Source: Planoprotostelium fungivorum (taxonomy: Eukaryota > Evosea > Variosea > Cavosteliida > Cavosteliaceae). Taken from it: a stretch of DNA of 30,228 nucleotides. The notes beneath the pieces were generated by a model. The model made no database searches. It worked only from the letters and a program-made list of their open reading frames with translations, and was not told the DNA's origin. This document shows, one piece after another, positions 23,167 to 27,338 of the stretch. The number at the start of each line of letters is the position of its first letter. The first letter of the stretch is position 1. The stretch spans positions 1 through 30,228 of the forward strand of contig MDYQ01000289.1 in assembly GCA_003024175.1 (NCBI GenBank), written 5' to 3'. A program made the position numbers and the translations under genes.

Positions 23167-23250
23167 GTTGTCTGGTTCAATTTGTATTCGTTGTCCACAT
23201 TCACGTGGAACTTTTCCTCTGAATCTGAATGACATCACGTGGACTTCCAT

Positions 23251-25349
23251 TTATTTCTTTGTCAGAGGCATGTACCATTCTTCACTGAGGCCAGCCTTTC
23301 TCCTGTCTTCTTCGTTGAACGGTGGCTTCAGGGGTCCTCTGAAATACTTTCTCACGAGTGCTTGGAAGTGTTCCACCTGTCTCTGTCATCACGAAGCCAG
23401 GAGATGGAAGGTGCGGATCGATGTGAGATGGAATTCACCTTGTCGATGGGAGGAACGGAGTTCTCACACATCCAAGCGAACCACTTGTGACCCGCTCCAA
23501 CGTGCGTGATCTCATCATCGTGGATGATCTTCAGGGTCTTCACGGACTCCTCATCCTTTGCCCTCTCGAACCTTTACGATGTTTCAATCCCCTCCGTTCG
23601 ATCCATCTCTCACTTTGCGATGGTGGCGGGATTGACATCTAGACCTCTGGCTTCGTGCACCATGTGAACGATGGCCAGTCGACACAAGAGATCGTGACTC
23701 GTTGTTGTGGCAGACTCCCACAGACCATTGTGAACTGGAAGGGCTCCGAATTCAGAGCCGAGGGCCTTCATTCTCTCGTTCAAGATGGTGAAGTGCTTCG
23801 ACTCGTCCAGTGCAACCTGCTCATCATCAGAGGGTCTATCAGTGGAGTGTGACTCACCTTGATGAAATCAGTGAAGAACTCTCTGGGTAGAGGTAGGTCA
23901 GAGCCCAGTGTTCGTGTTCCTGCGAACCTGGAGAGTGTGAGTGTCGTTTTCAGATACAAAAGAGGCTGTTCACCTGGCGACGATGTCCCAAGCCAAATCG
24001 ATGGCCCACTGTTCGATGTTGGCGAGGGAGTGCAACAGAGCGATACGACTGGCCTCAGTTCCTCCCTTTCCCCTCTTACCTTCTTTGCCGATCGGTACTA
24101 CGTTCAGCCTGCGATGTTCTCAGATTCTGATGTTTCATCAAATGTGATGATGTGATCACGTGATGATCATGAGACAGGATGAACAGAGCAAGTGATTGCG
24201 TAGAGTACGTGCCTGGCATCCCTGGGTGGTTCATCTGGCACGTTGACGATGCTTCCAGTCACGTGATCTATCTTCCCCTCGTTCCACAACTTCCCGGCCT
24301 CTCGACTGGTTGCCACCTTTTCCCTTCAATCTCCTCCCTCATTCTCATTTTCACCTTTTGTATGGGATCTGATGTATTGAGGACAAGTACGGCCCACTCA
24401 ACCAGAGTCCTTGGTGTCTCTGCAAGTGTTCAGTTCGGTGGATCGTGATGATCTCCATCTCACCTTGTATTCCCATTCTTTCGACTTCTCTCTCGATCTC
24501 TTTACAATCTTCGTTCGCTTTCTTCTTTCTGCGCCGACCAGTGGTCATGTCTATCGAGCATTAACTTTGCGATGGCATTGTGTGTGTGTCTCACCAACTG
24601 GTCTCTTCTCGACGATCAATTTCAGATCAGATCTCAGTCCAGTGTGAATGCTGATGTCGTCTTGATCGGTCAGTGATGTGGGACATGTCGATCGCGTTAC
24701 CTCCGTCTTCGGTGACATCATAAGTACAAGCCTTGAAACCGTGTGTCGAATTACCATCGTTCAGAGAGAATTCAAATTCATGATATGGGCAGATGACTGG
24801 ACGATCGTAAGATGGATGATGCGCGTGATAAGACTCGCCCACTCTCCCTTGTTCTGGCCAATCTTCTATGTCACCGACAGCTAAGTTACCTCCGCTGTGA
24901 GGGCAGACTGTTTCCATGCAGTAAAATTTGTCGTCATCGAGTTTGAACAACACCAGTTCTAACGTCTAAAGGAGGTGTTATGTCTCGCACTCGTTCCCTC
25001 CGACACATTACCTCCTGCGGAGGTGCAATGTTGTCAGACGAAGACTCTTCGGTTCCATGGATGGTGAGGTATGTCCTCTCTGTAAACTCGCTCTTCTTTC
25101 CCACGCACACTGCCATGTGATGTTTGAGAATCACATCTTTTCCTAAAACACGCGAAAACAAACAGCCAGTGAAAGGTGATGATCAGGTTTCAGATCGCCA
25201 GAGAACCAACCTACCGTCTTTGCGATCTGGGTGTGTTCTTCGTATTCGTGTCCAAAACGAAGGCTAGAGGAAATCGCATCGACTTTCACGACTGACTTCG
25301 AATGAACAAAAATGATACGATGCACGATCCTTTCATTGATGAGATGCAT
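23251..25349 (-). CDS. Rieske [2Fe-2S] domain fused to DUF455 ferritin-like protein
   Basis: Twelve exons with matching phases (first 25349-25211, then 25142-25012, 24965-24701, 24660-24595, 24550-24464; last 23376-23251) give about 507 residues. Near residue 111 is a Rieske cluster motif CPHS, paired with CPYH about 38 residues later, a wider gap than usual. After YDVTEDGDDISIHTGL, a 44-nt intron (24594-24551) leads in frame to a DUF455 domain: TLVEWAVLVLNTSDP, SRIALLHSLANIEQWAIDLAWDI, RTLGSDLPLP, VALDESKHFTILNERM, VHEARGLDVNPATI, IIHDDEITHVGAGHKWF, ending PPFNEEDRRKAGLSEEWYMPL. The Glu/His pairs look like a diiron site. The 24212-24109 intron appears to use a GC donor. The start is uncertain: ATG 25349 overlaps the upstream stop, and ATG 25116 is an in-frame alternative. 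If the 24551 intron is not used, these are two genes separated by two bases. Confidence 0.75.
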
Positions 25350-27338
25350 CACAGAATGAGGAGGTCCTTGGGTTGTCCTTTTCCCCTCGCTTCCCATCCA
25401 CTGTGAACGTCTTCCGTATCGATCCTCTCAAAGGTGGCCTCCGTTTGTTCGTTTCCTGTCCATCTCAGAATTGCACATCGTGAAGATGATGATGATCCAC
25501 CTCCACAGACGTAGATCCATCGATCATCGATATACATTCCATGCGTTCCCCATCTCGATGATGTCATGGGAGGGATCGTCTCCCAGTGATTCTTCGTCGT
25601 GTGATACCTCGTCGCCCTCGCCGACGTCACACCATCTACAACTCCTCCCACCACATAGATGTATTCCTACTCGTTTCAACTCACAAGAGATGAGAATCGT
25701 CACCCCGTGAGAGATGGCGCTGTGGTTGTATCTCGTCTCTCTCATGTTGGCCACAGAATGCCACTGACCGTCTCTGATGTCGTAATACTCTACGGTGTCC
25801 AAAGCCACACCCTCCGAGTTCATTCCACCGATGCTGTACAACAGCTCTCCCGATTGAACCATGGCGTGGGACTCGCGGTGGGATATCATGGGGGTCACCT
25901 TCTCCCACGTGTTGATGCTCCCGTTGTACCTCTCTACCTCGTTCACTGCGGCCATCACCTTCTCTCTATCATTCTCTCTCCTCTCTTTCATTCTCTCTCC
26001 TCTCTTTCATTCTCTCTCACCTTCTTTCCTCCCGTGCTCACGTTCGATCGACCTACGATGCTATCATTCTCGTATCGTTGAAAGATCACCTCCAGTGACG
26101 TAGATGTGATTGACATAAGATGCACTGGAGTGGTTCTCTCTCTCGCAATTCATGGGACAGATCTACCTCCTTCAGCTTCTGAGTCGATTCGGATGACTCA
26201 CCTGACTCCAACTGTTTGTGTTGGGGTCGAATACGTCCGCTGAAGTGGTGGCTCCGTTCTTATCTCTACCTCCGCTCACAAACACTTGTCCCTGAGACTT
26301 TCAATCTCATGTCTCAGCTCGCATGGAGATGATGATGGACGGGTGTCGATCACCTTGAAGGATAAGATGGAAAAGTTCTTCTTTGGATTGGGCATCATCG
26401 GTGTAGATTGCAACCCCATGGTGCTGTCCATCTGTCATCGTCCATCACGATGAGATGGATCACAAACCTGATGTCCAACAGACCGATCAATTCAGGTTGG
26501 GGAGTGTGGTGCATGCAGAAGAGTCTCCGCCTCGCTCGAAAAGTTCCATCAAAATCGATGACCCTGACGAGTCTGTCCAGTCCATAATATTCGGCTTCCA
26601 CCAAGAGGGCCCTTCTATGACTGGTGCTCTTCGTGTGAGGAATTTCTCCACTCCGCAGCCAGTCTAAGATTTGAGAGAACAGGGAAGGTGAACGATCGAA
26701 GAAGTAACAACCATCGTCCATCTTTGTCAACTCCATGGTGCCTGATCGAGATTCAGAAGATGGGCGTGACGATGGAAACAAATGGATGATCACCAGAAAA
26801 GAGGCCACAGAGACGTGAATTGGGCTGAGATGTGAGAGTGGACACTGTGGTGGTGAAGATGGTGCCGCCCACGTTGAGACGTATAGTGGTGGAGTTCTGT
26901 CTCTGCAGTTTGTTCAACCAGGACATCGTCTCACTCCAATTTTGTTCCTTCCCGCGAACGGTCGATTCCCTCTCATCGAGCTCTATCGCTTTTCTCTGTT
27001 GAGGTTGACGTAGGTCACAGCAGAAAATGCACCTCGATGGTCCGTTGAAAATTCTGAACGGCTTGAACTGCCTCCGTATTTCCCTCATTCATCAACTTTT
27101 CAAAGACCTGATGCCGAACGATTCATACTCCTCAGAATGTGTGGGTATGGTTGATTACCTTCTGCAAGGTTTTCGTCTGGAATACTATCCATTCGTGTAA
27201 CATAGATCCTTTGTTCGTATTGGCCACGGGTGACTTCATGGCTTCGATCCGATTGTGAGGGCCGAAATCCGAATTGTTTACCGCAATATCTACACCTGGC
27301 AGCCGATCGCAAGAGATCACCGTACGAAACGAGATCAT
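25349..27338 (-). CDS. KCTD-type BTB (T1) domain plus kelch-repeat protein
   Basis: Ten exons (27338-27159, 27107-27033, 26995-26794, 26741-26468, 26423-26354, 26291-26202, 26162-26090, 26052-26021, 25958-25704, 25666-25349) give 522 residues. After a coiled-coil-like, Glu/Gln-rich N terminus (about 60-115), a potassium-channel-tetramerisation BTB follows: IRLNVGGTIFTTTVSTL, then GCYFFDRSPSLFSQILDWLRSGEI and LLVEAEYYGLDRL. Kelch blades then appear (GQVFVSGGRDKNG...W, NHSSASYVNHIYVTGG, LLYSIGGMNSEGVALDTVEYYDIRDGQW, EYIYVVGGVVDG, WIYVCGGGSSSS). KCTD BTB domains often recruit cullin-3, and kelch propellers bind substrates, so a ubiquitin-ligase adaptor is a reasonable inference. The stop (25351-25349) shares a base with the next candidate ATG. 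Confidence 0.85.
25969..26022. repeat. 20-bp tandem repeat in a kelch-gene intron
   Basis: Two and two-thirds copies of TCATTCTCTCTCCTCTCTTT fill most of the 62-nt intron 25959-26020. The minus strand stays open through the repeat, so the intron could alternatively be retained as a Glu/Arg-rich coding insert. Confidence 0.85.

Follow-up and report, generated by a model that had tools for sequence, protein, structure and literature searches.

A probable fusion of a Rieske ferredoxin-like domain to a putative diiron DUF455 protein in Planoprotostelium fungivorum

The diiron oxygenases aldehyde-deformylating oxygenase, R2lox, VlmB and MiaE present their metal ligands in the order E / ExxH / E / ExxH, and in each case the reductant is a separate protein. 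A Rieske ferredoxin serves as electron donor to the diiron site in multicomponent monooxygenases, the example being T4moC of toluene-4-monooxygenase. In those enzymes too the Rieske component forms a subunit of its own, and the hydroxylase comes from another family.

Designed sequences made it possible to link the DUF455 family (PF04305) to a SCOP family (PMC4520260), and a Cryptococcus DUF455 protein is included among genes given an oxidation-reduction function (PMC6200987). Two other papers merely list the domain (PMC4545925, PMC6214176). The passages of this literature that deal with DUF455 give no function for it, and those in PMC11119756 and PMC4554924 concern DUF4551 and DUF4559.

The window analysed here is a stretch of 30,228 nucleotides of Planoprotostelium fungivorum (contig MDYQ01000289.1, positions 1 to 30,228). 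A Rieske frame followed by a DUF455 gene is arranged head-to-tail on the minus strand, and splicing of 11 exons with removal of 10 introns between 25116 and 23251 yields an open, phase-consistent frame of 452 amino acids (Table 1). The proposed GC-AG intron (24109-24212, minus strand) is the longest of the gene at 104 nt and its boundaries are the least certain of the model.

Table 1. Features of the Rieske-DUF455 gene model in window coordinates.
Feature	Position	Strand	Content	Basis
Exon 1	25012..25116	-	ATG at 25116; Rieske domain starts (MAVCVG...); Pfam match from residue 3	
Exon 2	24701..24965	-	Rieske core; ligands C56/H58 (CPH) and C94/H97 (CPYH)	
Exon 3	24595..24660	-	Rieske part ends, linker begins	gene model
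Intron 3 (disputed)	24551..24594	-	44 nt, GTGAGA...TTAATGCTCGATAG; final three bases are the in-frame TAG	
Exon 4	24464..24550	-	basic linker (MTTGRRRKKKANEDC...); contains the alternative ATG 24548	
Exon 5	24355..24419	-	DUF455 begins (residue 189)	
Exon 6	24213..24316	-	followed by the proposed GC-AG intron 24212-24109	
Exon 7	23974..24108	-	first diiron-type ligand, E263	
Exon 8	23858..23927	-	DUF455 part	
Exon 9	23614..23816	-	ligands E304/H307 and E354	
Exon 10	23439..23571	-	ligands E387/H390	
Exon 11	23251..23376	-	holds the stop TAA	

The original prediction extended the gene to 25349, a boundary that we correct to 25116. Position 25349 is probably not the start: its ATG shares bases with the stop codon that closes the Kelch-repeat frame upstream. 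A start at 25349 is disfavoured also by the Rieske match, which opens at residue 3 counted from ATG 25116, and the frame has no further ATG between 25116 and the preceding stop. An upstream coding exon joined through a GTTGGT donor is possible, if unsupported. Packing is tight at both ends of the gene. At 25347-25351 (minus strand) the sequence TGATG combines the Kelch stop with an overlapping ATG, and at 23248-23253 (minus strand) the TAA of the Rieske-DUF455 gene directly abuts another ATG. The likelier start of the downstream gene, which is of GH31 type, lies 84 nt past this TAA, in a region without a Pfam match.

Are the two frames joined by an intron or divided between two genes? As had been predicted, the Rieske frame stops at TAG 24553-24551 with ATG 24548 opening the DUF455 frame two bases on, and excision of 24594..24551 (TTG/GTGAGA...GATAG/AC) takes out the stop without breaking the frame (phase 1). 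The likeness of this intron to others of the locus had been described as exact. The yardstick here was the remaining introns of the same gene together with those of the second DUF455 gene of the genome, 15 in number and later 16 when an intron of that paralog was added. These 16 span 38-104 nt with a median of 45 nt, 12 falling within 38-46 nt, and one paralog intron (L011 3430-3470) has the same GTGAGA and GATAG ends. The likeness holds for length, donor and acceptor. It does not extend to the exon side of the donor, which is TTG where AAG, CAG and GAG prevail among the comparison introns. With a matrix built from the 15 other introns the donor lies in the top 9.6% of 3710 GT dinucleotides in the window; among its 4096 AG dinucleotides the acceptor ranks within the top 21%. 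A branch-point-like TTAAT (YTNAY) occurs at -14, an argument that is weak because 7 of the 15 other introns lack such a motif in the 22 nt before the acceptor (8 of 15 have it). When the segment 24660-24500 was subjected to 1000 dinucleotide shuffles, 35% of the products held some in-frame joining intron of 36-110 nt and 6% held one as good or better, so that the splice signal by itself is only moderate evidence for the join.

The same 6% can be counted in favour of two closely packed genes, a 159-residue Rieske ferredoxin whose frame closes at TAG 24553-24551 and, behind it, a DUF455 protein with ATG 24548 as its start. Each frame has a usable stop or start, and the compactness of the region, with the overlapping Kelch stop and the short distance to the GH31-type gene, is in keeping with such an arrangement. 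Against it, a 3′ end plus a promoter could not fit into a spacing of 2 nt, and coincidence would have to account for a GTGAGA donor, a length of 44 nt and a matching phase. A comparison of an intron with 14 codons plus stop, 2-nt gap and start gives 7.0 bits for the intron on sequence, and 10.8, 12.4 or 14.2 bits when a mean gene spacing of 100, 300 or 1000 nt is assumed, although we caution that these likelihoods are rough, depending on assumed priors, on training with two genes and on a codon table that includes the fused gene itself. With 11-14 bits against it under those priors, the two-gene model is unlikely. Far less probable still is a polycistronic or trans-spliced transcript, in which one pre-mRNA would provide separate Rieske and DUF455 proteins with AG 24552-24551 as the trans-splice acceptor. 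That AG does sit two bases ahead of the ATG, but the GTGAGA donor at 24594 is then left unexplained; a search for a spliced leader gave no Rfam match in the window at gathering thresholds. Splicing of intron 3, and with it a single fused gene carrying both domains, is probable on the sequence considered here. Of the gene models compared, the fusion has the better support, and the original structural prediction is probably right.

The N-terminal part matches the Pfam Rieske domain (PF00355) over residues 3-109 with an E-value of 1.2e-8 and 35.2 bits, above the cut-off of 20.3, and the cluster ligands are present in the CxH and CxxH pairs, C56 with H58 and C94 with H97. More specific assignments fall short of their thresholds. 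Rieske_4 (PF22543), which describes soluble Rieske-type ferredoxins, scores 23.6 bits against 28.4, and NirD (TIGR02378), the top NCBIfam match, 30.3 bits against 74.65. The best solved relative is a mouse Rieske domain-containing protein (PDB code 3d89), which we take to be RFESD, with a weak E-value of 8.7e-4. Both have a soluble Rieske domain and share the ...SGG.L..G.IED... region; they differ in the spacer between the ligand pairs, 20 residues in the mouse protein and 35 here, and in the fusion to DUF455. The longer spacer (24780-24907, minus strand) includes a histidine-rich stretch, ESYHAHHPSYD. A hidden in-frame intron was considered as the explanation for its length, and by eye no GT-AG pair keeps CPYH in frame without loss of GDIED. 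Five other Rieske matches in the genome look, again by eye, oxygenase- and AIF-like.

The C-terminal part is a complete DUF455 domain, matching PF04305 over residues 189-446 (E 4.8e-97, 324.8 bits against a cut-off of 34.3) and profile positions 1-246 of 247. It shares 42-47% identity with three alphaproteobacterial proteins. Six ferritin-type ligands, E263, E304xxH307, E354 and E387xxH390, are invariant in six aligned proteins and their equivalents are invariant in 44 bacterial DUF455 sequences. An AlphaFold2 model of a Sphingomonas relative, rather than of the fusion itself, has a mean pLDDT of 93.5 and positions the ligands on four long helices, so that the pattern E / ExxH / E / ExxH falls on a four-helix core as far as the helices of the bacterial model apply.

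Structural comparison of this bacterial model by VIA-align places aldehyde-deformylating oxygenases at ranks 1-13 (top Z 14.2), with VlmB (Z 13.3), R2lox (13.2) and a MiaE-type protein (2itb, 13.1) also close; scores nearly as high go to a Dps-like protein (13.6) and to bacterioferritins (13.1), and Z values of 13-14 are not specific among helical bundles. Foldseek E-values for the model are 0.07 or worse. The fold resembles that of the diiron oxygenases, whereas at the level of sequence none of their solved structures matches the bacterial DUF455 profile at E 0.1 or better; the profile finds only R2lox and ribonucleotide-reductase-type chains, at E 0.11 or worse. Fold and ligands together support a putative ferritin-type diiron protein.

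PF04305 is found in two places only in the genome, the window and C448. The C448 gene (L011 2701-3926) encodes a stand-alone DUF455 protein with all six diiron-type ligands and no Rieske part, of 309 amino acids in a first model and 295 if one extra intron is allowed. Its arginine/serine-rich N-terminus looks like a mitochondrial signal. In the phylogenetic tree a split supported at 100/100 sets both eukaryotic copies, together with mostly alphaproteobacterial rows, apart from 20 other-genome rows and one viral-collection contig; the alphaproteobacterial rows were mostly picked for similarity to the fusion, and a long branch leads to the paralog. Support for the fork that contains the fusion is 84/83, and in a first tree, which contained L015, both eukaryotic rows lay in an open fork. 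In the two trees the DUF455 part of the fusion groups with mostly alphaproteobacterial rows and is closest to alphaproteobacterial proteins among the sequences sampled. The viral-collection contig (L096 4001-4849) encodes a DUF455 protein of 33% identity, which pairs with an other-genome row at 83/91.

Does the fusion occur elsewhere? The search covered bacterial, plasmid and viral-collection sequences. No Rieske-DUF455 fusion is present in the best 80 of at least 574 relatives drawn from at least 593 genome-contig stretches; the lowest query residue matched in these 80 is 123 and the Rieske ligands occupy 56-97, so none of them reaches the ligands. All 80 loci are titled Pseudomonadota, nearly all Alphaproteobacteria, with L017, L042 and L058 lacking a class name. 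Viral contigs gave one relative among 96 stretches, restricted to residues 142-442, and plasmids gave 15 records with 144 as the lowest residue matched; neither set contains a fusion. In 299 Pseudomonadota genomes, with only the best candidates per genome scored, 124 matched, 120 through DUF455 (lowest residue 142) and four through the Rieske part only, none through both. Phyla beyond Pseudomonadota were covered only through the best 80 contig relatives, the viral contigs and the plasmids. The bacterial members of PF04305 found here have no Rieske fusion. A literature search returned no paper dealing with both DUF455 and Rieske domains. As eukaryotic proteomes and domain-architecture databases lay outside the comparison, an annotation of it may already exist elsewhere.

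At E 0.01 the Rieske query finds nothing in flanks of approximately 4 kb around 40 of the 120 DUF455 loci, taken as every third by rank, with the caveat that 13 of the 40 stretches are shortened by contig ends and that a single-sequence query may miss divergent Rieske domains. One motif-scan match among these 40 (L150) has the look of chance. At E 1e-4 the query matches no frame in the best 80 loci plus four plasmid loci. A loose motif scan of the same 84 returned 16 matches, 14 of them within the 80, and a single true-looking Rieske motif, in L089 (7889-8779), approximately 3 kb downstream of DUF455. Rieske families are present elsewhere in all four bacterial genomes checked.

A frequent bacterial neighbour is a peroxiredoxin. 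In 55 of the best 80 of at least 574 relatives a same-strand peroxiredoxin frame lies within 200 nt upstream of DUF455 or overlaps it; the flank holds none in 21 and a more distant one in four, two of the 80 (L066 and L072) having no upstream sequence. Of the 40 sampled loci, the 12 highest-ranking include 10 with an upstream peroxiredoxin, and the remaining 28 include none. One neighbouring peroxiredoxin was typed as AhpC/TSA, nearest to PrxQ-type models though under their cut-offs. DUF455 of the alphaproteobacterial kind (L016-L095, L129-L140) is often directly 3′ of a PrxQ-like peroxiredoxin gene.

Such proximity leaves a peroxidase-type role open for DUF455, since a peroxiredoxin gene adjoins it in most alphaproteobacterial loci examined. 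The fusion could be real and its DUF455 part act as a peroxide reductase of the rubrerythrin kind, or as a protective protein, instead of an oxygenase; the Rieske domain would then be its electron donor. The pairing in 55 of the 80 loci and in the top-ranking of the 40, and the typing of the one neighbour speak for this, as do the near-equal fold matches to bacterioferritins and the Dps-like protein; the absence of the pairing from the other 28 of 40 loci and the run of aldehyde-deformylating oxygenases through fold ranks 1-13 speak against it, and we regard it as rather doubtful, if less so than a pair of separate genes.

We somewhat favour, for fusion and mechanism taken jointly, a self-contained Rieske-to-diiron oxygenase or peroxidase. 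One minus-strand gene would encode an RFESD-like Rieske [2Fe-2S] ferredoxin domain at the N-terminus, joined through a basic linker to a complete DUF455 domain at the C-terminus. A separate reductase, encoded outside the gene, would most likely feed electrons to the Rieske cluster, which would pass them across the linker to the diiron site. That site may then activate O2, in the manner of aldehyde-deformylating oxygenase or MiaE, or reduce peroxide. The original prediction saw in this combination a self-contained reductase/oxygenase that might reveal the role of DUF455. Its structural part is probably right, since the fusion model has the better support and the ligand set is full, which makes a covalent pairing of a Rieske module with a putative diiron protein the likeliest interpretation; the oxygenase or reductase role is an inference, and the functional claim is plausible.

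More tentatively, the DUF455 family may consist of diiron enzymes that activate O2 or peroxide and whose physiological donor, named by the fusion, is a soluble RFESD-type Rieske ferredoxin, the covalent Rieske domain having possibly replaced the bacterial partnership with peroxiredoxin in the eukaryotic lineage. DUF455 is common, occurring in 120 of the 299 sampled Pseudomonadota genomes. Fusion to an electron carrier in nature classically points to a partner, and it opens the way to direct testing. In this compact eukaryotic genome the fusion suggests, without proving, that the carrier supplies electrons to the DUF455 part.
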